Position numbers and translations under genes: made by a program
In this document: positions 12,982-56,041 of the stretch, one piece after another
How positions within the stretch are numbered: the first letter of the stretch is position 1
How the letters are laid out: each line of letters begins with the position of its first letter
Source: Chlorobiota bacterium
GTDB lineage: Bacteria; Bacteroidota; Bacteroidia; Bacteroidales; Marinilabiliaceae
Reading direction: 5' to 3'
Assembly (NCBI GenBank): GCA_013153405.1
Contig: JAADEM010000020.1
Coordinates: 1 to 64,000 of the forward strand
Length of the DNA stretch: 64,000 bases
Notes under the pieces: model-generated
What the model saw: only the letters and a program-made list of their open reading frames with translations
The model's database searches: none
What the model was told of the DNA's origin: nothing

Positions 12982-15900
12982 ATGCCGGAAGAAAAGATTG
13001 AATTATCCAAAATTTATAAAAGGCGGCTCACCGATCATGATATTTTTCAGGAGCTGATGTCGTTTAAGGTAAAGGAGGTATTGTTGCTGGCCAACTATTA
13101 CGACTCCTACAGTATTGTGCGGGAAGGACGTTTTTTTGACAAAATCATAGGAGAATATCTTCAGCTAAATCTTTTTACTTCACCGCGTATAACCAGTGTC
13201 GCAAATTGTGATGATGCTCTTGAAATGCTCCATGAGCGAAATTTCGACATGGTGATAATCATGGCAGGCCTTGATAAGCAGCTGCCGGTAAGGGCAAGTC
13301 GAAGGATTCACAATGCTTTGCCGGAACTGCCGGTATTACTTTTGGTTAATAATAATGCCGATCTCCGTTTTTTTGATGATGAAGGAGGTAATACCGAACA
13401 TATCGACAGAGTATTTGTGTGGAACGGGGATACCCGTGTTTTTCTGGCAATGATAAAGCATGTAGAGGACAAGATGAATGTGGAGAAAGATGTAAAAGTG
13501 GGTGATGTAAGGGTTATTCTTCTTGTGGAGAATTCGCGGAAATATTATTCCCGGTATCTGCCGTTACTCTATTCCATTATAATGAGACAGACACAGTCGA
13601 TTTTGTCGGAAGAGACGTCGGATCAGATATACAAGATTATGAAGATGAGGGTGCGCCCCAAAATACTTCTTGCTACAAACTTTGAAGAAGCTGTTGAAAT
13701 ATTCGATAAGTATCAGGATAATATAATATGTGTTATATCGGATGTGAGATATAAACGGAACGGTGTTCCCGACGGAGATGCAGGTGTTGAACTTATTAAA
13801 TATGTAAAAAGTAAATCGTCAATGCCCACTCTTCTTCAGTCATCCGAACCGATGAATTATAAGAAAGCTGAGCTGGTTGGTGCTGATTTTATCGATAAAA
13901 ACTCCGACAGCTTATCTATGGATATTCATAATTTTATTTATGAAAAGCTTGGATTTGGCAACTTCAGATTTAAAAATGAGAAGGGAGAGGTGGTCGCAGA
14001 GGCTGCCAATATCAAAGAATTTATGAAATGCATAAGAGAAGTTCCTATTGAATCTTTGATATTTCATGCACGACGTAACGGTATCTCAACATGGCTTATG
14101 GCAAGGGGGGAAATAAGCCTGGCTAAAAAACTGCGCCCGTTCAAGATTGAGGATTTTGTTTCACCCGAACAGTTGCGACAAGCAATAATAGATGCTTTTG
14201 AAGAGGTAAAACTGGAACGTATGAGAGGACGGGTTGTGTTGTTTGATCCAAGCCTTGTTCGTAGTAACAGGTTTATTGTCCGTATAGGAGAAGGCTCATT
14301 CGGAGGTAAAGGACGCGGTATGGCTTTCCTGAGTAATTTTATAGAGAATATCGATTTTAAGAATAATATTCAGGGATTGAATATAGAAATACCTGCAACT
14401 ACTATTGTGGGAGCCGGTGAATTCACAAAATTTATCGAAAAAAATAACCTTTTCCATAAAGCCTTTGTTCAGAAAAATTATGAAGAGATACGTGATTTAT
14501 TCCTAAAGTCGGAGCTTAGCGATGAAGTGGATGAAAAATTGCGCAGCTATGTTGAAGTAATGGACAGACCGTTGGCTGTCCGTTCATCAGGGCTTTTCGA
14601 GGATTCTCTTTTACAGCCGTTTGCAGGTGTGTATGCGACATATATACTGCCTAACAATCACCCTGATCCGGAAGAGAGGTTTGCTCAGCTTGCTATTGCT
14701 GTTAAACTTGTTTATGCATCAATGTTCAGCGATGCTGCCAAAGCATATTTTGAGGCTGTGGATTATAAAATTGAGGAAGAAACCATGGCGGTGATTATCC
14801 AGGAACTGGTAGGACAGGAGGCAAACGGACGCTTTTATCCGCACATAAGCGGTGTAGCCCAGTCGTATAATTACTATCCGTTCTCATACATGAAACCTGA
14901 AGATGGTTTTGCCGTGCTTGCCGTAGGACTTGGCAAGTATGTGGTTGGTGGAGAAAAAGCCTGGCGTTTTTGCCCGTCATATCCTACCCTGGAATTAAAT
15001 TCAATAAAAGATCAGATTAAAGATTCTCAAAACTACTTTTATGCACTTGACCTGTCAAATAATCCGGTGGATCTTGTGAATGACGGGGAGGATGCCGCCA
15101 TTGTGAAACTGGATATTATGGAAGCCGAAAAAGACGGTAATCTGAACCACTGTGTTTCGGTTTATGATTATGAGAATGACAGGCTTGTAAACGATATGTC
15201 GGTTAAAGGTCCGCGTGTTGTAAATTTTTCCAATATTCTGAAGTATGAATACATTCCACTTTCAAAAACGCTGGAGTTACTGTTGAGATTTTTTAAGGAG
15301 GCTATGGGAGCTCCGGTGGAAATAGAGTTTGCAATAGACCTGAAAAGAGGAAAAAATAATAATCCAACACTGTACCTGTTGCAGATTAAGCCGCTTATCC
15401 GCCTTGAGACACATGCCGATGTCAGTTTTGATGAGGTGGAACAGGAAAGAGTTATTGTTCAGTCGCTTAAAGGTATGGGTAATGGAAGAGTTGAGACAAT
15501 AAAGGATGTGATATTTATGAATATCGATAAATTTGACCGGACAAAAACGGCTGAAATGGCACATGAAATTGCCGGACTGAATAAATTTTTCGATGAAAGC
15601 AATACGGAGTATGTCCTTATTGGTCCTGGGCGCTGGGGAACACGTGACAGGTTTACAGGTATTCCTGTTCTTTGGTCACAGATATCACATGCAAGGGTGA
15701 TAGTGGAAATGGGGCTGCCCGATTTTCCGCTTGAAGCATCGCTTGGCTCACATTTTTTTCATAATGTTACTTCAATGAATGTGGGATATTTCTCGGTTCA
15801 TCACGGGAAACAGGATGAATGGGTGAATTTTGATGTGCTTCAGCAGCAGGAAGTGATAAACAGTTCGGAATATTTTACCCACGTAAGATTCAAAAAACCT

Positions 15901-16008
15901 CTGACTATTCTTATGGATGGTAAAAACCAGAAAGCGGTTGTGATGTTCAACAATGATTCAGTGTCGGAAAATGCGGATGAGTTGTTGAATGAAGGATCCG
16001 GTATTTAA
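12982..16008 (+). CDS. Receiver-domain / PEP-synthase-like ATP-grasp protein
   Basis: 1008-residue cytoplasmic protein. Residues about 30-170 look like a receiver fold without the phospho-acceptor Asp (VLLLANYYD, MVIIMAGL). Residues about 175-330 form a second, better preserved receiver (VILLVEN, CVISDVR with Asp254, LLQSSEP, FIDKNS). From about 430 a PPDK_N/PEP-synthase ATP-grasp domain follows: GEGSFGGKGRGMAFL, RPLAVRSSGLFEDSLLQ near 530-545 and LYLLQIKPL near 800. The last 200 residues carry VLIGPGRWGTRDRF. The swivelling phosphohistidine domain and PEP/pyruvate TIM barrel of true PEP synthases are absent, so it cannot be a standard PEP synthase. It stands before an RsbW-like/GNAT fusion and a GH3 ligase on the same strand; a regulatory nucleotide-using role is inferred. 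Confidence 0.8.
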   Translation: MPEEKIELSKIYKRRLTDHDIFQELMSFKVKEVLLLANYYDSYSIVREGRFFDKIIGEYLQLNLFTSPRITSVANCDDALEMLHERNFDMVIIMAGLDKQLPVRASRRIHNALPELPVLLLVNNNADLRFFDDEGGNTEHIDRVFVWNGDTRVFLAMIKHVEDKMNVEKDVKVGDVRVILLVENSRKYYSRYLPLLYSIIMRQTQSILSEETSDQIYKIMKMRVRPKILLATNFEEAVEIFDKYQDNIICVISDVRYKRNGVPDGDAGVELIKYVKSKSSMPTLLQSSEPMNYKKAELVGADFIDKNSDSLSMDIHNFIYEKLGFGNFRFKNEKGEVVAEAANIKEFMKCIREVPIESLIFHARRNGISTWLMARGEISLAKKLRPFKIEDFVSPEQLRQAIIDAFEEVKLERMRGRVVLFDPSLVRSNRFIVRIGEGSFGGKGRGMAFLSNFIENIDFKNNIQGLNIEIPATTIVGAGEFTKFIEKNNLFHKAFVQKNYEEIRDLFLKSELSDEVDEKLRSYVEVMDRPLAVRSSGLFEDSLLQPFAGVYATYILPNNHPDPEERFAQLAIAVKLVYASMFSDAAKAYFEAVDYKIEEETMAVIIQELVGQEANGRFYPHISGVAQSYNYYPFSYMKPEDGFAVLAVGLGKYVVGGEKAWRFCPSYPTLELNSIKDQIKDSQNYFYALDLSNNPVDLVNDGEDAAIVKLDIMEAEKDGNLNHCVSVYDYENDRLVNDMSVKGPRVVNFSNILKYEYIPLSKTLELLLRFFKEAMGAPVEIEFAIDLKRGKNNNPTLYLLQIKPLIRLETHADVSFDEVEQERVIVQSLKGMGNGRVETIKDVIFMNIDKFDRTKTAEMAHEIAGLNKFFDESNTEYVLIGPGRWGTRDRFTGIPVLWSQISHARVIVEMGLPDFPLEASLGSHFFHNVTSMNVGYFSVHHGKQDEWVNFDVLQQQEVINSSEYFTHVRFKKPLTILMDGKNQKAVVMFNNDSVSENADELLNEGSGI

Positions 16009-16057
16009 TTAAAAGACAGACAGAGGAGCTTAATTTTTAACAGAAAAATAGGATTAA

Positions 16058-17521
16058 ATGATTCTGAAAACAATTTATGAACTAAAAGCGATCCCTGTCA
16101 TCAGGGATTTTGTTGCAAGTGTTGCCGGCTATTACGGGGCTAATGCTCATGAAAGAGATGAAATTAAACTTGCTGCCGAGGAGGCTGCCGAACATATAAT
16201 TGAGAATTATCCGCAGGGGCAACAGGATTATTTTGAGATTTTTTGTGATGTTGATAACAATATGCTGCGTGTTGTACTGAGTAATATGGGGCTGCCGGTA
16301 AATAAAGAGGATATTCCTTCATATAAAGTTGATAAGCCGGATGAATCAATTGACGGATTGAAATTTTTTCTCATAAAAAAACTTACAGATAATTTTTATT
16401 TTCTTAATCTGGGAACAGGCGGCTGGCAAACAGTTCTCGAAAAGAAGATCCTTGCTCTTGATGAACAGGAAAATAAAACGGATAATGAAAATAATAGTGA
16501 TACAGAAGTTGCTAACAGCCGCGAAAGCTTGCAAATTTCGTTAGCCGGACCCGATGATGCTTTTGAAATAACAAAACTGGCTTACTTTACATATCGCTAC
16601 TCATATGCAAAAACAGTTTTTTACTATCCAGAGATGTTAAGTGAAGCTATAAGAAACAACAGTGTTATATCTTTCGTGGGGAAAACAGCTGATGGAGAGA
16701 TTGTTATTCATTCGTCATATCACCGCTCTCCCTATTCTAGAGAAATTGTTGAGGCAGGAGCCCTGATGAGCAACCCTGCCTATAGAAAAAACAGTGGTTT
16801 GTTAAGAATTGTGAGGACCCAGATACAATTCAGTAAAGTTAAAGAGAATAATATTTCTATTGTGGAATCAAATCTGGTAACTGCACATACAGGCTCTCAA
16901 CGACTAACCAAAGCAAATAATTTTTTTCCGTTCGCACTTAAGCTGTCGGTACACGAACGTGTTAATTTTGTTGCAATGGAGGATATCAGTGAACAACGTG
17001 AAACTCTTTTGTATTCAATTATGACACCTTTCGAACTGCAGGAAGTGGCATTGAACATTCCCGGTCCCCATAAACAATTTGTAGGAGAATTATTTGATAT
17101 AGCCGGTATACCGGTTAGTTTCACAAATGAAATTATGCATCCTGAACAGGTAAACAGCAAGTTGGTTGTAGACAAAAAAAATGAGGATAAACTTGCCACT
17201 ATATTTATTGAGAAAGCCGGTGATAACCTTCCGGGCGATCTCAAAAAGGTAACCAGAGAGCTAAATGCCGAAAATTTTATTACATTTCATATTCTGATAC
17301 CTACGTGGAAACCTCTTTCAACCGGCATTGAAGAGCAGTTGAATTCTGCAGGATTTTTCTTTTCAGGAATTATGCCCCGTACACCTGATAAATGGCTGTT
17401 ACTCTATTCCCGCATCGATAGTCAGAAGTTTGATTTCGACAATGTGAAAATAATTGGTGATAATGCGGAAAAACTGAAAGAGTATATCACATCATGTTAC
17501 GATAAAATCCTTAATTACTGA
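16058..17521 (+). CDS. RsbW-like HATPase domain fused to GNAT acetyltransferase-like domain
   Basis: 487 residues. Residues 1-130 have the fold pattern of a SpoIIAB/RsbW anti-sigma kinase: IKLAAEEAAEHIIENY in place of the N box, VVLSNMGLPVN in place of the G1 box and IDGLKFFLIKKLTDNFYFL for the lid/G2 region. The N-box Asn is His and the G1 Asp is Asn, so ATP use is doubtful. After an acidic linker (about 130-165, EENKTDNENNSDTE) comes a GNAT-like domain (FEITKLAYFTYRYSYAKT, then VEAGALMSNPAYRKNSGLL, an acetyl-CoA-loop-like segment). The C-terminal 150 residues are of unknown fold. It lies 49 bases after the PEP-synthase-like gene and 5 bases before the GH3 gene, so it is probably in an operon. 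Confidence 0.75.
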   Translation: MILKTIYELKAIPVIRDFVASVAGYYGANAHERDEIKLAAEEAAEHIIENYPQGQQDYFEIFCDVDNNMLRVVLSNMGLPVNKEDIPSYKVDKPDESIDGLKFFLIKKLTDNFYFLNLGTGGWQTVLEKKILALDEQENKTDNENNSDTEVANSRESLQISLAGPDDAFEITKLAYFTYRYSYAKTVFYYPEMLSEAIRNNSVISFVGKTADGEIVIHSSYHRSPYSREIVEAGALMSNPAYRKNSGLLRIVRTQIQFSKVKENNISIVESNLVTAHTGSQRLTKANNFFPFALKLSVHERVNFVAMEDISEQRETLLYSIMTPFELQEVALNIPGPHKQFVGELFDIAGIPVSFTNEIMHPEQVNSKLVVDKKNEDKLATIFIEKAGDNLPGDLKKVTRELNAENFITFHILIPTWKPLSTGIEEQLNSAGFFFSGIMPRTPDKWLLLYSRIDSQKFDFDNVKIIGDNAEKLKEYITSCYDKILNY

Positions 17522-17526
17522 TTACG

Positions 17527-19179
17527 ATGACAGAGGATATGATTAATAAAAGTGCTGCAGATGCATGGGAGTATTTTTCCGGTCTTTGCGAAAATCCCGA
17601 AAAAGCTCAGCAGAGCGTGTTGGGGGCAATTCTTAAAAATGCTGCCGGCTGCCGGTTCCTTAACAAGTACGGGATAACATCTTCCGATACCGTAGACAGT
17701 TTCAGAAAGAAAATGCCTTTAAGCTCATGGGTGGATTATAAAGACCTGTCGGAAGAGATGCAGCTTGGTGCCGAAAATATTCTGTTTCCGGGCAAGCCTG
17801 TTGCTTTCCTGGCAACCAGCGGAACATCAGGCCTGAAAAAATTAATACCCGAAACAGAGCTGGGACTTAATGCAAAAATGGTAACAGAAAAACTCAGGAG
17901 ACTAATTCTTTCAGAGAAGTATCCCGAAGTAATGAAAGGAAAATTATTGCCTTTGATAAACAAAGCCGAAATAAGTAAAACCCCGGCAGGAATACCAATA
18001 GGATCAGCATCGGGAACAACTGCAAAAAGCGCATCAAAAGAGCTGATTGATATGATTGTGTTTCCTTTTGAGGTACTGGATATTGAGGATCAGTTTGCTC
18101 TTGATTATGTAATAATGAGATTTGCCCTTGAGGATGATATCAGGCTGATAATGGGTAACAACATAGCCCGAATGGCAAAGCTTACTGATATTGTGAAAGA
18201 AAATTACGCACAAATTATCGATGATATAGAGAAAGGAACAATATCAGAAGATTTGAACATTGAACCTGCCCTGAGAGATAAACTTGTTGCAAGACTGAAA
18301 CCCAACAGGGAAAGGGCAGATGAACTTAAAAAGATAGCAGAAAGAGGAGATGAGTTTATTCCTGCTAATTACTGGAGAAACCTTAAACTTATCTTTGCCT
18401 GGCTTTCGGGAAGTATAGGCAGTCGGGTTGAAGAACTGAAACCACTTTTCGGAGAAGCGGAGTTTATTGATGTGGGATACGGAGCCAGCGAAGGGAAATT
18501 TAATATTCCCCGTAGTGCAGGTAATCCGGCAGGAGTTCTTGCTCTGCACGGTGCTTTCTTTGAGTTTATTCCATACAATACTTCAGGCCGGGTAGATGAA
18601 TACAGGGAAGGAGAAATACTTCTTGCACATCAGCTGAAAAAGGGAGAGATGTATGAAATGGTGATAACAAATTATGCCGGTCTGTACCGATATAATATGC
18701 ATGACATTATAAAAGTCACCGGGTTTTACCGAAATACACCGGAAATTGTTTTTATCTCTAAAACCGGAGATGTGGGAGATATTGCCGGTGAAAGACTGGC
18801 CGGCTCAATAATCAGCAGAGTGGTTCCCGGGGTTCTGAAAAGACTAAATATAAAAACAGAACATGTATGTGCAGTGACTGTAAGTTCTCCGCCGCACTAT
18901 ATCTTTTGTGTTGAACTGAGTGGTGAATATGATTTGAAAAAGAGCAAAACAGAAGAGATTGCCGAAATGCTGGATGCTGAATTCCGTAAAGAAGTGGGAT
19001 ATGGTTATATGCGAAGAGATAATTTATTACTGAAACCGGAGGTGCGTTTTATGAAGCCGGGCTGGAAAGATGCACTATTTGCCGAAAAAGTTTCGGCCGG
19101 AAATCAGACAAGCCAGATTAAACTTAATGTTGTTTACAAAGAAGAGATACCCGGAAAGGAGTTTGTGGTGAACACCTGA
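17527..19179 (+). CDS. GH3 auxin-responsive-promoter family acyl-acid adenylating enzyme
   Basis: Member of the GH3 family of the ANL adenylate-forming superfamily. Plant members conjugate amino acids to jasmonate or auxin; the bacterial substrate is unknown. The P-loop-like FLATSGTSGLKKLIPET is near residues 94-110, the second nucleotide-binding motif DVGYGASEGKFNIPRS is near 315-330, and YRYNMHDIIKVTGF is the hinge region. Length 550 aa fits. It is the last gene of the + strand part of the signalling block and converges with the SpoIIE gene, 19 bases away. Membership is clear, function is not. Confidence 0.88.
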   Translation: MTEDMINKSAADAWEYFSGLCENPEKAQQSVLGAILKNAAGCRFLNKYGITSSDTVDSFRKKMPLSSWVDYKDLSEEMQLGAENILFPGKPVAFLATSGTSGLKKLIPETELGLNAKMVTEKLRRLILSEKYPEVMKGKLLPLINKAEISKTPAGIPIGSASGTTAKSASKELIDMIVFPFEVLDIEDQFALDYVIMRFALEDDIRLIMGNNIARMAKLTDIVKENYAQIIDDIEKGTISEDLNIEPALRDKLVARLKPNRERADELKKIAERGDEFIPANYWRNLKLIFAWLSGSIGSRVEELKPLFGEAEFIDVGYGASEGKFNIPRSAGNPAGVLALHGAFFEFIPYNTSGRVDEYREGEILLAHQLKKGEMYEMVITNYAGLYRYNMHDIIKVTGFYRNTPEIVFISKTGDVGDIAGERLAGSIISRVVPGVLKRLNIKTEHVCAVTVSSPPHYIFCVELSGEYDLKKSKTEEIAEMLDAEFRKEVGYGYMRRDNLLLKPEVRFMKPGWKDALFAEKVSAGNQTSQIKLNVVYKEEIPGKEFVVNT

Positions 19180-19198
19180 AATTGTGGAGGGAATAATA

Positions 19199-21556
19199 TT
19201 ACAGTGATTTTTCCATTATCACCACATTCCTGTTTTTTACTCTTTTGTATGAAAATACGTCTACCGTATTTTTTATAAAATGAATTCCCAGGCCTCCTAT
19301 TTCACGTTCTTCGGCCGGACTATCGGTATCGGTATGTTTCTCCTCAAGTGGGTTGAAGGGGATACCGTCGTCCGAGATTTCAATACGTACCGATTTGTTT
19401 GTTTGCCATAACCTGACCTCTATTTCATGTATATCATTATCAGTAAAAGCATATGAAATTACATTAACTATCCATTCTTCAAGAGCCAGATTCAATTGCA
19501 TCAGAAATCCCGGTTGCCAGTTAAGCTTTTCTCCTGTCTGATTAAGCCATGATTCAATACGGGGATATTCCGATTTGTTGTTGGTGAAAACGATTGAAGC
19601 ATCGGGGGTGTTTTTGTCATGCAAAGTATTATTGTTGTTAATGTTGTTCGACAGGCACAGCATTGTAATATCGTCCGACTGTTCGGCATTGCCGACAAAA
19701 TGGTTAACGGCATTTTTAATGTTGACAATACATTTCTCGGCAGTATGAGCAGGATTGTTTTTTATGACTTCAAGCAGGGTATTGTCTCCAAATAGTTTAT
19801 TTTCAGAGTTCATTGCTTCTGTTACCCCGTCGGTATAAAGAAGGAACAAGCTATCTTCAGGTAGTTTTATTGTTTCGTTAGTGAATTTAATGTCAGGCAT
19901 TGCACCAAGTGGCGGGGCCGAAGCCTGTTTAATGAAAAAACTTTTTTTACCTGTTACTATTATCGGAGGGTTATGTCCTGCATTGGCGTATGTCAGTTCG
20001 TTTGTTTTAAGGTTAAGTATGCCGCAGAAAAGTGTTATGAACATACTGGCATCATTGTTCTCCGAGAGTTCATTGTTTACAATATACAAAGCCTTTGCCG
20101 GATCTTTTACATTTTGCACTGTTGATTTTAAAAGTGTTTTTCCTACTGCCATAAACAGTGAGGCAGGTACACCTTTCCCCGAAACATCTCCGATACATAT
20201 GTACAGTTTTTTATCATCCAGGAGGGCAAAGTCATACAAATCACCTCCTACCTCTTTGGCAGAATCTAGAGATGCAAAAATGTCAAGGCCCGAGTATTTA
20301 GGATAAGGCGGAAAGAGTTTGGGTAAAATACTGTGTTGTATCTCTTTTGCAACAGACAATTCGCTGGCTATTTTCTCTTTTTCAGCAGTTGTTGCCGCAA
20401 GTGTTTTTATATAATCCTGCAGGTCGATACGCATTCGTTCAAAGTCCATTACCAGACGGCCTATTTCATCATTGCTTTTTAATTTCGGTAGTGGAGCGTC
20501 AAAATTACCGTTAGCCAGACTGTCAGAAGCATCGCACAATGCTTTCAGGGGGTTGGTAATGGAGTGAGAAACAAAAAAAGCAGGAATAAGCAATGCTGTA
20601 ATTCCCAGTAGTGCAATAATCAGCATCTTTTTATTCAGATCATTTATCGGGCTGAGGATGGCTTTTTCGGGAATTAGAAATCCTATTCTCCAGTCGGCTT
20701 CTTTTACGGTATCAAAATAGAACCACATGAAACTGGATGAGTTAATCTGTTTAAGTCTCATGTTTCCCGACTGTTTTTTTCTCAGAAGTTGAGACAGGTT
20801 TTTCATCATCTCACGATCGGCCGGGTCAGGCAGTTTCTTCCCTATTGATGCTATCGTTTCTTTTAAAACCCACTCTTTTTTAGGATATGATATTATTCTG
20901 CCTTCGTTGGTTACCAGAACCGGAGCCCCCTGATGTCCCAGTTCAACTTCCATAAGGAGTTTTTCCACACTGTCAAGTATCAGATCACATGTAATAATTG
21001 CAGTTACATTTCCATTAACAATAACCGGAGTTGAATAAGTAACCATCATTCGATTAACATCGGTATCAATATATGGTTCTGTCCAGATATCTTTTTTCAG
21101 GGTGTAAGGCTTTATAAACCATTCACTCTTGTAGTCCTGTTCGGGATTTATCCTGTCTGCATATTTTATGGTGTCATTGTCTTTCCATGCATACAGCATC
21201 TGAAAACCGGCTTTGTCAAATTGTGTTTCGGGAGCAAGGGCTACAGCACTTCCTCCTATCATTTCATCACTGTTCAGTATGTTTTTTAATAGTTGAATAC
21301 TTTTTTCTCTTGTAGGATTTGTGACTTTAAAGATAATGGCTGCTTTGTCAACTATTGTTTTCGCCTTAAAGAGTTTCTGATCTATTTCAATTGCCGATTT
21401 AGCAGCAAGTGATGTGTAGTATTTTTTCTGCTCCTCCAGTATGCGGGTCCTCAGATTGTAATTGCTTACAATCATTACTATAGCCAGAACAGTACCTGAA
21501 CTTATTACAATAAGTAATGCAAGTTTAAAAAAAAGAGATTTTCTGATACGGCGCAT
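19199..21556 (-). CDS. Membrane sensor with SpoIIE phosphatase and RsbW-like kinase domains
   Basis: 785-residue transmembrane signalling protein. TM1 (residues 9-30), an extracytoplasmic dCache-like sensor (about 35-305, with WFIKPYTLKKDIWTEPY), TM2 (about 310-330) and a HAMP linker lead to a PP2C/SpoIIE serine phosphatase (about 400-640). Metal-binding acids are visible in AKEVGGDLYDF, CIGDVSGKGVPA, LLYTDGVTEA and QSDDITML. Residues about 655-785 are an intact RsbW-like histidine-kinase-fold domain: LALEEWIVNV, ISDDGIPFNP and IGGLGIHFIKN. Kinase and phosphatase for a STAS partner thus lie in one chain. The STAS gene lies 5 bases upstream and is transcribed first. Confidence 0.9.
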   Translation of the reverse strand: MRRIRKSLFFKLALLIVISSGTVLAIVMIVSNYNLRTRILEEQKKYYTSLAAKSAIEIDQKLFKAKTIVDKAAIIFKVTNPTREKSIQLLKNILNSDEMIGGSAVALAPETQFDKAGFQMLYAWKDNDTIKYADRINPEQDYKSEWFIKPYTLKKDIWTEPYIDTDVNRMMVTYSTPVIVNGNVTAIITCDLILDSVEKLLMEVELGHQGAPVLVTNEGRIISYPKKEWVLKETIASIGKKLPDPADREMMKNLSQLLRKKQSGNMRLKQINSSSFMWFYFDTVKEADWRIGFLIPEKAILSPINDLNKKMLIIALLGITALLIPAFFVSHSITNPLKALCDASDSLANGNFDAPLPKLKSNDEIGRLVMDFERMRIDLQDYIKTLAATTAEKEKIASELSVAKEIQHSILPKLFPPYPKYSGLDIFASLDSAKEVGGDLYDFALLDDKKLYICIGDVSGKGVPASLFMAVGKTLLKSTVQNVKDPAKALYIVNNELSENNDASMFITLFCGILNLKTNELTYANAGHNPPIIVTGKKSFFIKQASAPPLGAMPDIKFTNETIKLPEDSLFLLYTDGVTEAMNSENKLFGDNTLLEVIKNNPAHTAEKCIVNIKNAVNHFVGNAEQSDDITMLCLSNNINNNNTLHDKNTPDASIVFTNNKSEYPRIESWLNQTGEKLNWQPGFLMQLNLALEEWIVNVISYAFTDNDIHEIEVRLWQTNKSVRIEISDDGIPFNPLEEKHTDTDSPAEEREIGGLGIHFIKNTVDVFSYKRVKNRNVVIMEKSL

Positions 21557-21561
21557 TGTGC

Positions 21562-21840
21562 TTAGCGTTCAATATTCATGATAGTATGAAATCCGGCCAT
21601 CTTAAATATATTGTAAATATCTTCGTTCATTTCTTTAAGGATAAGCTTCCCTCCGTTTTTGCTCATTACCTTTGTGATAACAAGCATAATTCTTAGCCCG
21701 GCACTCGAAATATAAACAGTATCTGAAAAGTCACAAATTGTAATCTGAGGGTTCTCTGACGATATTTTACTTAATAACTCCTTTTCTACATCAGGTGAAT
21801 TAACGGCATCGAGGCGTTCGGGAATTTTATATTCAAGCAT
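21562..21840 (-). CDS. STAS-domain anti-anti-sigma factor-like switch protein
   Basis: 92-residue single STAS domain like SpoIIAA/RsbV, the phosphorylatable switch of partner-switching systems. The conserved loop reads DTVYISSAGLR, with Ser45/Ser46 at the phospho-acceptor position. It sits 5 bases upstream of the SpoIIE/RsbW fusion in the same operon, which should phosphorylate and dephosphorylate it. The downstream target is not evident: no sigma factor is encoded nearby. The facing RsbW-like/GNAT fusion is the best local candidate for a binding partner (inference). Confidence 0.88.
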   Translation of the reverse strand: MLEYKIPERLDAVNSPDVEKELLSKISSENPQITICDFSDTVYISSAGLRIMLVITKVMSKNGGKLILKEMNEDIYNIFKMAGFHTIMNIER

Positions 21841-22116
21841 ATTTCTTTGTTTTTATTTAACATCAGATGGTAAAAATATAATAAAATTATGTAAAAAACA
21901 GAGGTTGTAAGTATTTATAAAATTATGTTAATACCGGGAATATGCATGAACATTATTCAAATAAAAACAGGATTAAATATAAAGAACAGAAGCAGCCGGG
22001 AAGTCTGTTTCGGAACAAACGGTTAGTTCTTATGGTAAGCCTGAGTTTTTGATTTGTCCCGATTTGTTTTTATATTCAAATTCTGATATATATAAATAAT
22101 TGCAAAAATCCGGATC

Positions 22117-52705: not shown

Positions 52706-55700
52706 ATGCTTGTGTTAATTAAAGGGGAAATAAATAGAAATGTTTTCAGGTTCTTTCTAATGATAGTTGCATTAGTTTCTACCGTTACTATTTATGCTGA
52801 CAATATTGTTCCCCGCATAACACAACTTTCTGTCAATGACGGATTGTCAAACAGTCGTGTTACACTTCTTTATCAGGATAGCCGTGGCTTTTTGTGGATA
52901 GGTACCAGAGATGGATTTAACAGGTACGACGGGTATAAATTTATCGAGTACAAACATAATCCTCATGATTCATTGTCGATAGCTGGTAATGTAATTCAGT
53001 CGGTTATAGAAACGAATGATGGTAATTTGTGGATAGGAACAAAAGATAACGGAATATCGGTATGGGATCGTAAGACTGATAAATTCTATAATCTGAATAA
53101 TCTGCTTCCTGAGGACATGAAAATGTCAGAGTCCGACATTCTTGGTATTACCAAAGAAAAAGATAATGTATGGGTACTAACTCCGAATTTCTTGATAAAA
53201 GTAAAACAGGACTTCTCATTCCTGAAGGAATTTACTCATTATAATAATGTGTTTAAAACTGAGAATTTTAGTTCTTATCCTCTGAAAATCAGGAATGATA
53301 AAATATGGATGGGGACTAAAGACGGATTGTTAACCTTTGATACTTTAACTGAAAAATTTTCAAGGTTTGATATTGGGGGTGTTTTTATTTCTGACGATAT
53401 AAGTGACCTGATATTCTTGAATGATTCTATTATTGCAGTCAGTTCAGACAGTGGGCTGAAAAAATTAAATATAAAATCCCGCGATTTTTCGATAATATGG
53501 GCAGATGATTCACCTATGGGATATGTTCCTGTCAATTGTCTTGCGAAGAGTAAGAATGATGTGTTATGGATTGGTACACACAGAGGAGTTGAAAGAGCAA
53601 AACCTCCATATTCTTCACATTCTGTTTTCGGTAAAGATAAAAAGTGGGGAGATAAATTAAGAAACGTACAAATAGCTTCTCTGCTGTTTGATAAAAGTGG
53701 AATTCTTTGGGTTGGCACCAAAAACCGTGGGGTTTTTAAAGTTGTATTGTCAGAGCCAAAATTCAAGTCTCTGTCAAAAGACTCGGATTTACCGTTCAGT
53801 CTGGATTCATACAATTTTACAGCAGTAATAACAGATAAAGAAGGAGATTTGTGGCTCGGTACCGAGGATAACGGATTGTATATGGTAAATAAGGATTTTT
53901 CATATTCGAAGCATTTTGCTGTAAACCGTAATCTAGAGTACAGTTTTGAAGATAAGGTGTGTGCATTGATGGAGAACGGTGGAGAGATATGGATTGGCAC
54001 ACCTTCAGGGATATTTATTCTTAATAAATCCACGTGGTTAATCAGAGAGTTTGATTATGGAGGAAGCCCTGAATTTGCAAATCTGTTACGCCATAACAGA
54101 ATTAATGATATGCTTAAAGACCGTTTAGGGGATATCTGGATTGCAACCAATTTTGGTTTGTATAAATATGATGGTGAAAAGATAGTTAGTTATTTTGAAG
54201 ATCCGGATGGATATTCGGCAACTAACTCAATATGCAGTGATGTGGTAAATGCATTATATGAAGATAAACAGGGGTGGATATGGATAGGTACAAAAAAGGG
54301 AGTCAATTATTTAAGAAGGGCAGGTGAGGATTTTCAGAGAATATGTAATTGGGAGCAAGGAAGTAACGAACTCAGTGACCCTGATGTAACATCATTTGGA
54401 GAAAGTAAGAATAATATAATATGGATAGGAACCCGGTCGGGCTTGTCTTTTTATGATAAATCAAAACTGAAATCAAGTATTTATTCCAGCAATAATGATA
54501 ACCTGGCACAAACAATGGTTTGCAGTATCCTGATTGATGGATACGATAGGTTATGGATGGGTACGAATAAAGGCATTTATTATATTAATGCTGATAATAA
54601 AATATTTTATTTTACACAGGAAGACGGACTTCCCGGATATTCATTTAACGTGAGAGCCGCTTTCAGAAATAAAAGTAATCTTTATTTTGGCGGAATAATG
54701 GGGCTTGCTTTTCTCAATACCGATTCATTAAAGGAAAATGTAGTTGTTCCGAACGTGGTAATTACCGATGTGGAAGTATTACATAAGGGAAAAGTTATAA
54801 TCAGATATCCCGGTGAAGTGTCTGAAATAAAATTCAAATACAAAAAGAATTCTTTAATAAAGGTTGATTTTGCAGCATTGGAGTTTACTCAGCCAAAGCA
54901 TAACTGGTATAAGATAAAACTTGAGAATTTTGATGATGACTGGAGACAGGAAACTCATAAAAACAGTGTAAGTTTCTCGAACCTTTCTCCTGGTGTTTAT
55001 CATCTTAAAATACTGGGCGCCAATAATGATTTTGTATGGAATAATGATCCTGCCGAGCTTACAATTTATGTAAGACCTCCATTGTGGATGTCAGGCTTTG
55101 CATATCTGTTTTATATTCTGTTTGGTGTATTTATTATTCAGCTGATAATAAACTTTAGTGTCAGAAAGTACAGGGTAGAGAATAAAAGACTGCGCGAAGA
55201 GGCGGAAAATAAACATAAGATAGAAGAGCAAAAAGAGACTCTTACCAAGATAAACCGGAGTCTTACAGATAGCATCAGTTATGCCAAAAGGATTCAGGAA
55301 GCTATAATTCCTTCTGAGCAGGTATTCAGAAAGATTATTCCCGAAGCATTTGTTTATTATGGGCCAAAAGATATTGTGAGTGGAGATTTTTACTGGGCTT
55401 ACGAAAAAAATGATAAAATATTTGTAGCGGCGATTGACTGTACAGGGCATGGAGTTCCGGGGGCTTTTATGTCAATGGTGGGGCATGGTATGTTAAGAAA
55501 TATTGTTGAAATCAGGGGAATAGAATGTCCGGCAGATGTCCTTAATTACATGAATGAGGAAGTTATAAGTATTTTTAAAAAGAACAGCACCTCAAAGAAT
55601 GACGGTTCAGTATTTGAAGTGAATGACGGAATGGATATGGTTCTTTGCGTAATAGATAAAAAGACTAAAGAGATGGAGTTTGCAGGTGCCATAAATCCTA

Positions 55701-56041
55701 TTTATATAATAAGGGATAATGAAATTCTGACATTTAAAGGAGACAGGTTCCCTGTAGGGCATAACAGTGAAAAAAGATTCCATAAAGAAGTTATTAAACT
55801 TATGGACGGGGATATGATTTATTTGTTTTCTGATGGTTATGCTGACCAGTTTGGTGGGCCCGAGAATAAAAAATTCAAATACCGCAGATTCAGACATCTT
55901 CTTCTTAATATTCATAAACTTCCGGCTCAGGACCAGAAAGCTATCTTACATCAGAAGATGGAAGAGTGGATGGGATATAGCGGTAAAAAACAGGAACAGA
56001 TAGACGATATTCTTATTATCGGGATTAAGCCTTTCGTGTAA
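52706..56041 (+). CDS. Two-component-type propeller sensor with SpoIIE phosphatase output
   Basis: 1111 residues. A signal peptide (about 15-32, ending TIYAD) is followed by many Reg_prop propeller repeats with the WIGT signature (FLWIGTRDGFNRYDGYKF, NLWIGTKDNGISVWDR, IWIGTKKGVNYLRR and others) over residues about 33-690. A Y_Y_Y-like domain (about 730-790: LIKVDFAALEF, KLENFDDDWRQ) and one membrane helix (about 797-815) follow, then a coiled coil and a PP2C/SpoIIE domain (about 860-1111: IVSGDFYWAYEKND, AIDCTGHGVPGAFMS, YLFSDGYADQFGG, IDDILIIG). In classical hybrid systems the same sensor ends in a histidine kinase; here the output is a serine phosphatase. No STAS partner is adjacent. Confidence 0.9.
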   Translation: MLVLIKGEINRNVFRFFLMIVALVSTVTIYADNIVPRITQLSVNDGLSNSRVTLLYQDSRGFLWIGTRDGFNRYDGYKFIEYKHNPHDSLSIAGNVIQSVIETNDGNLWIGTKDNGISVWDRKTDKFYNLNNLLPEDMKMSESDILGITKEKDNVWVLTPNFLIKVKQDFSFLKEFTHYNNVFKTENFSSYPLKIRNDKIWMGTKDGLLTFDTLTEKFSRFDIGGVFISDDISDLIFLNDSIIAVSSDSGLKKLNIKSRDFSIIWADDSPMGYVPVNCLAKSKNDVLWIGTHRGVERAKPPYSSHSVFGKDKKWGDKLRNVQIASLLFDKSGILWVGTKNRGVFKVVLSEPKFKSLSKDSDLPFSLDSYNFTAVITDKEGDLWLGTEDNGLYMVNKDFSYSKHFAVNRNLEYSFEDKVCALMENGGEIWIGTPSGIFILNKSTWLIREFDYGGSPEFANLLRHNRINDMLKDRLGDIWIATNFGLYKYDGEKIVSYFEDPDGYSATNSICSDVVNALYEDKQGWIWIGTKKGVNYLRRAGEDFQRICNWEQGSNELSDPDVTSFGESKNNIIWIGTRSGLSFYDKSKLKSSIYSSNNDNLAQTMVCSILIDGYDRLWMGTNKGIYYINADNKIFYFTQEDGLPGYSFNVRAAFRNKSNLYFGGIMGLAFLNTDSLKENVVVPNVVITDVEVLHKGKVIIRYPGEVSEIKFKYKKNSLIKVDFAALEFTQPKHNWYKIKLENFDDDWRQETHKNSVSFSNLSPGVYHLKILGANNDFVWNNDPAELTIYVRPPLWMSGFAYLFYILFGVFIIQLIINFSVRKYRVENKRLREEAENKHKIEEQKETLTKINRSLTDSISYAKRIQEAIIPSEQVFRKIIPEAFVYYGPKDIVSGDFYWAYEKNDKIFVAAIDCTGHGVPGAFMSMVGHGMLRNIVEIRGIECPADVLNYMNEEVISIFKKNSTSKNDGSVFEVNDGMDMVLCVIDKKTKEMEFAGAINPIYIIRDNEILTFKGDRFPVGHNSEKRFHKEVIKLMDGDMIYLFSDGYADQFGGPENKKFKYRRFRHLLLNIHKLPAQDQKAILHQKMEEWMGYSGKKQEQIDDILIIGIKPFV

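Follow-up and report, generated by a model that had tools for sequence, protein, structure and literature searches.

A four-gene SpoIIE/RsbW/STAS partner-switching cassette in a Marinilabiliaceae genome, with an RsbW-GNAT fusion protein as candidate target

The 64,000-nucleotide stretch analysed here (the window; positions 1 to 64,000 of contig JAADEM010000020.1 from a Chlorobiota bacterium of the Marinilabiliaceae) carries at positions 16058-21840 a strain-specific four-gene partner-switching cassette, made up of a protein that fuses an RsbW-like head to a GNAT domain (FUS), a GH3 adenylating enzyme, a SpoIIE-RsbW sensor, and a STAS protein. In the reading that we favour, to which we give about an even chance, the sensor sets the phosphorylation of the STAS protein, which docks on the head of FUS, the window copy of FUS being probably non-catalytic. 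A broader claim, held with slightly less than even confidence, is that a widespread and undescribed branch of partner switching exists in which a STAS protein controls an acetyltransferase through a built-in RsbW domain; most lineages would have members with intact motifs, and other members, that of the window among them, would be pseudoenzymes.

The first-pass annotation of positions 12982-21840 had placed there five adjacent genes on two facing strands, and the list of open reading frames (ORFs) and the Pfam searches bore out their coordinates and strands. On the plus strand, the genes for a receiver/PPDK_N protein (12982-16008), FUS (16058-17521, 487 aa), and GH3 (17527-19179, 550 aa) follow each other with gaps of 49 and 5 bp. 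On the minus strand lie the genes for the bifunctional sensor (19199-21556, 785 aa), composed of PDC/Cache, HAMP, PP2C phosphatase, and RsbW kinase domains, and for the STAS switch protein (21562-21840, 92 aa), so that the GH3 and SpoIIE genes converge, with 19 bases between their stop codons. The phosphatase domain of the sensor (19649-20218; PF07228, E 4e-49) has intact GGDLYD, GDVSGKG, and DDITM motifs, and its kinase domain (19208-19579; PF13581, HATPase_c_2, E 1.6e-20) retains LEEWIVNV, DDGIPF, and GGLGIH. The STAS protein (PF01740, E 4.6e-12) shows an SSAG motif at residue 45, which provides a phosphorylatable serine. The PP2C metal-binding motifs, the N-box and glycine boxes of the kinase, and the serine motif of the STAS protein are therefore all present, and the proposal of a complete SpoIIE/RsbW/STAS switch holds as judged from domains and motif strings. 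A second SpoIIE-type phosphatase protein of 1111 aa is encoded at window positions 52706-56041, and eight SpoIIE domains were counted genome-wide.

The domain structure of FUS was resolved by combining Pfam, a family profile, and an AlphaFold model. Pfam detected HATPase_c_2 in the head of the window copy (E 7e-10) and missed its GNAT half, for which hits were obtained in relatives; the family profile matched RsbW (6.7e-24), SpoIIAB, and, more weakly, GNAT structures. The model had a predicted local distance difference test score (pLDDT) of 87.5. Residues 1-134 (16058-16459) aligned by VIA-align with SpoIIAB/RsbW at Z 16.2 (1l0o, 1th8), with a root-mean-square deviation of 2.7-3.4 Å over 126-131 residues, and the matches included complexes of SpoIIAB and RsbW with their STAS partners. 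Residues 156-330 (16523-17047) matched the GNAT fold at Z about 14. The last 160 residues (17039-17518), folded alone, reached a pLDDT of 92 and had no strong match, the best being Z 8.0 over 84 residues, followed by many GNATs at Z 6-7, which is compatible with a C-terminal domain that is perhaps half-GNAT-like. No NCBIfam model scored over its cut-off on FUS, and a literature search returned no description of an RsbW-GNAT fusion, although coverage of subscription papers was poor and this absence is weak evidence. FUS, a widespread family with an RsbW head, a GNAT domain, and a half-GNAT-like tail, thus appears to be undescribed.

The window copy of FUS is degenerate at the positions expected to matter for catalysis. 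Compared with 80 relatives, the N-box Asn46 (Asn in 89%) is replaced by His, Asp82 (Asp in 95%) by Asn, and the second Gly of the GLG motif, G102 (Gly in 96%), by Lys, so that ATP-site residues that are intact in most relatives are lost; likewise, the acetyl-CoA pyrophosphate loop (R/Q-x-x-G-x-G/A) reads RKNS instead of RGQG at residues 243-246 (Gly246 in 93%). The copy is also the longest branch of the family tree, at 4.0 changes per column, where the median is 0.31. At the same time, its ORF is full-length and many invariant family residues are kept. Judged from these residues, the copy looks CATALYTICALLY dead, and acetylation, which had been proposed as an output of the system, is doubtful for it, given the degeneracy of GNAT and ATP motifs alike. 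Since it is full-length and confidently folded, a docking or scaffold role seems likelier than acetyl transfer, and the protein is probably a STAS-binding, non-catalytic effector rather than an acetyltransferase. Loss of the N-box Asn was found in 14 of 90 FUS copies, and a tendency of FUS to lose the ATP site when encoded beside a separate RsbW was not significant (5/18 vs 9/72, p 0.14).

The content of the genome points to FUS as the partner of the switch. Only two HATPase_c_2 domains scored over the Pfam cut-off genome-wide, those of the SpoIIE-RsbW kinase and of FUS. In agreement with the first-pass annotation, the examined genes near the site included none for a sigma factor, and no SigB, SigF, or SigG scored over the curated cut-off in the genome, which is 93% complete (best TIGR02980 score of 115 bits, cut-off 234). 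FUS is therefore the simplest RsbW-type partner for the STAS protein besides the kinase itself, and we regard this evidence as strong but not final.

The same pairing recurs in other bacteria, and this, together with the genome content, supports the earlier suggestion of the fusion as likely STAS target. A contig scan with a three-sequence FUS alignment yielded 80 loci from many phyla, and the set again numbered 80 once whole-genome loci had been added and repeats and loci without full FUS dropped. A STAS, SpoIIE, or stand-alone RsbW gene was present within three genes of FUS in 23 of them, frequently as part of a single operon, and STAS was the immediate neighbour in 12 positions, its frequency dropping with distance. 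One-strand runs of FUS and switch genes were found in Armatimonadetes (SpoIIE-RsbW-STAS-FUS, L112), Lentisphaerae and Verrucomicrobia (STAS-FUS, L118 and L133), Chloroflexia (FUS-SpoIIE/RsbW-STAS, L162), and Bacteroidota records, including a Sphingobacterium (STAS-RsbW-SpoIIE-FUS, L173); the order SpoIIE-RsbW-FUS-STAS was seen at L179 and L186. Because the scan was biased to one side of the family, a separate order-wide search was made on 393 genomes not picked by sequence pattern, with SpoIIE relatives defined by E <= 1e-50. FUS was present in 22 genomes and a SpoIIE relative in 93; the latter occurred in 19 of the 22 FUS genomes and in 74 of the 371 others (Fisher p 2e-10, in a test that ignores phylogeny). 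The two genes lay within 6 kb of each other in nine genomes, that of the window included, where 0.11 would be expected. On the FUS tree, 31 of 90 rows had a switch gene within four genes, with at least 13 changes of this label on starred branches, and so the pairing has been made or lost many times rather than inherited as one neighbourhood. Its presence in many distant bacteria suggests that what the switch controls is not transcription but an enzyme-like protein. As a separate observation, the gene L192:4925-7159, which immediately follows a SpoIIE-RsbW-FUS run, encodes a STAS domain fused to TCAD9 and to a stretch that resembles aminoglycoside phosphotransferases.

The boundaries of the cassette were established by comparison with relatives. 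A same-genus genome (G149, locus L067) shows the order korA-korB-PPDK_N-acs-fabD without any of the four cassette genes, and blastn homology with it ends at 15950, the end of PPDK_N, and restarts at 22046, just before acs, which leaves a block (15951-22045) with no counterpart and containing the four genes. The segment 16058-21840 is thus a four-gene insertion in the genome of the window or a loss in its sisters, and gain is favoured, as the cassette is absent across nearly the whole family. The PPDK_N protein was found in 57 of 61 relatives, with 81-91% identity in three same-genus genomes, whereas full-length FUS was present in two only, the window's genome and G195, and absent from those three. 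PPDK_N is consequently an unrelated core-genome neighbour, and the co-inheritance of five genes that had been proposed fails, the families being found apart; the convergent arrangement invoked in its favour says nothing on the co-inheritance of PPDK_N. In that protein, Pfam detected PPDK_N (E 2e-37), matched receiver and DUF5752 models below threshold, and found none of the phospho-His and phosphoenolpyruvate-binding catalytic domains of phosphoenolpyruvate synthase or PPDK; models of the former enzyme scored far below their cut-offs. A second related copy of the receiver/PPDK_N gene exists in many genomes of the family, and in some the open frames are much longer (1150-1560 aa). The base composition of the cassette (GC content 35-41% vs 39% for the window) was uninformative as a mark of foreign origin, as were promoter and terminator scans, with promoter-like sites near chance level.

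The GH3 gene is cargo of the cassette. All three GH3 domains (N, middle, and C) were detected by Pfam in its product, which keeps the adenylation motif strings TSGTSG and YGASEG and scores below threshold with the OlsH equivalog model (50 bits, cut-off 620). GH3 of this subfamily is rare and, outside the window, adjoined FUS in none of about 90 loci examined; that it may serve as a local enzymatic target of the switch is speculation.

According to the mechanism that we propose, a signal at the Cache sensor would shift the balance between the SpoIIE phosphatase and the RsbW kinase of the membrane sensor, and these opposed activities, suggested by their motifs, would set the phosphorylation of the STAS protein, with the serines of its SSAG motif as presumed sites. 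Unphosphorylated STAS would then quit the kinase and bind the RsbW-like head of FUS, and this docking could change the activity or the partner of the GNAT/C-terminal body. The motif-retaining majority of the FUS family would be acetyltransferases under STAS control. All these steps are modelled on the RsbV/RsbW and SpoIIAA/SpoIIAB precedents and on the directly controlled enzyme of the SiaC-SiaD pair.

Several points weigh against this scheme. Roughly two thirds of the FUS loci lack a switch gene at a distance of up to four genes, the co-occurrence test takes no account of phylogeny, and the window FUS is extremely divergent and lies in a separate, facing transcription unit; the genome, 93% complete, has three STAS domains besides that of the cassette (four in total), and the docking of STAS on FUS is a step that we infer. 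In addition, the majority of SpoIIE relatives occur without FUS, in some cases with another neighbour in its place. Among 20 loci around SpoIIE relatives, picked mostly for having no FUS beside them, a gene of about 216 aa resembling adenylate/guanylate cyclases (PF00211, 2.5e-7) was found near STAS, in the same order, in eight (L198, L199, L201, L202, L206, L209, L210, and L211), and it is a further candidate for an enzymatic output of such switches. Such recurrent companions fit non-sigma, enzymatic outputs, yet they also give the main rival explanation: the STAS protein would target another protein encoded elsewhere, for instance such a cyclase-like enzyme, and FUS would merely share the neighbourhood. 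We consider this unlikely though far from negligible, as the adjacency of FUS and switch genes recurs far above chance in many lineages, and the domain by which STAS proteins are bound in known systems is present in FUS.

It is also conceivable, with a rather low probability, that FUS is a second kinase or a decoy whose head phosphorylates or sequesters the STAS protein while the GNAT body works independently of the switch. The N-box and GLG motif are intact in most FUS relatives, and STAS adjoins FUS without a separate RsbW at L118, L133, L123, and L145; however, the window copy has lost the N-box Asn and the GLG Gly, and the sensor already has an intact kinase. The same lost residues, together with the long branch, could instead mark a decaying gene, in which case the cassette was acquired, the fusion is losing function, and the switch controls nothing through it. 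We hold this to be marginally less probable still, given the full-length ORF, the confident predicted fold, and the invariant residues kept; no close homologs of the window FUS were found for a selection test. Finally, the five-gene system of the first-pass annotation, with GH3 and PPDK_N as partners, is in our view very improbable: the close same-strand spacing of PPDK_N, FUS, and GH3 speaks for it, but the distributions of PPDK_N and GH3 and the empty site within the genus speak against it.

In other genomes, the genes next to FUS give hints of its chemistry. In 12 loci, mostly of Bacteroidota and with one duplicate record among them (L072, L143, L145, L147, L150, L152, L153, L154, L156, L157, L159, and L160), the gene that immediately follows FUS, on the same strand, encodes an acetylpolyamine amidohydrolase whose nearest solved relative is 3q9b (3e-76); this suggests reversible acetylation chemistry in this clade. 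In nine further loci (L105, L106, L107, L109, L110, L111, L116, L128, and L168), the same position and strand are occupied by a gene for an Amidohydro_3 protein (about 550 aa). Given these amidohydrolase-type genes, acyl-amide chemistry is a reasonable guess for catalytic FUS members. A gene for an NMT1/THI5-like periplasmic binding protein, perhaps a ligand-binding partner of the sensor, adjoins SpoIIE in 10 of the 20 loci mentioned above, usually directly upstream (L198, L199, L201, L202, L203, L207, L210, L212, L213, and L216), and is also found at L176 and L179.

Compared with known systems, the cassette resembles RsbU/RsbW/RsbV and SpoIIE/SpoIIAB/SpoIIAA of Bacillus in combining a PP2C phosphatase with a GHKL serine kinase and a STAS protein, all with their motif strings intact, and the FUS head shares the RsbW/SpoIIAB fold. 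It differs in having no SigB/F/G over the cut-off, in uniting phosphatase and kinase in one sensor, and in a second RsbW-type domain fused to GNAT. A precedent for a partner switch that acts directly on an enzyme is SiaABCD of Pseudomonas aeruginosa, in which SiaC activates the diguanylate cyclase SiaD (PMC8457831). The window sensor is distantly similar to SiaA (3.5e-21) but scores 75.4 bits with the SiaA equivalog NF038263 (cut-off 700), and instead of a diguanylate cyclase beside it, the candidate output is the RsbW-GNAT fusion. In Bacillus subtilis, AcuA and AcuC control acetyl-CoA synthetase (PMC11255334, PMC13121692), and similarities with our case include a GNAT protein, a histone deacetylase-fold deacetylase adjoining FUS in the Bacteroidota clade, and acs flanking the cassette. 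In contrast, the FUS-adjacent deacetylase is closest to acetylpolyamine amidohydrolases, acs occupies the site in G149, which lacks the cassette, and true acs lies near one FUS relative only (L133), so an AcuA-like role in acetylating AcsA is not favoured. The ACT-GNAT fusions of actinobacteria are amino-acid-regulated acetyltransferases (PMC6434083). FUS likewise joins a regulatory domain to GNAT, but this domain is RsbW-like, which suggests control by a protein partner and not by an amino acid.

SpoIIE/RsbW/STAS switches are common, and in the absence of a matching sigma factor it is, to our knowledge, seldom known what they act on. The recurrent RsbW-GNAT fusion beside switch genes offers a concrete target candidate for such sigma-less switches, and the fusion of the window, apparently dead beside an intact switch, is a naturally occurring test case for docking, as opposed to kinase activity, as the role of the fused head. 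If the reading is true, partner switching would extend from transcription and cyclic di-GMP synthesis to acetyl-transfer chemistry.

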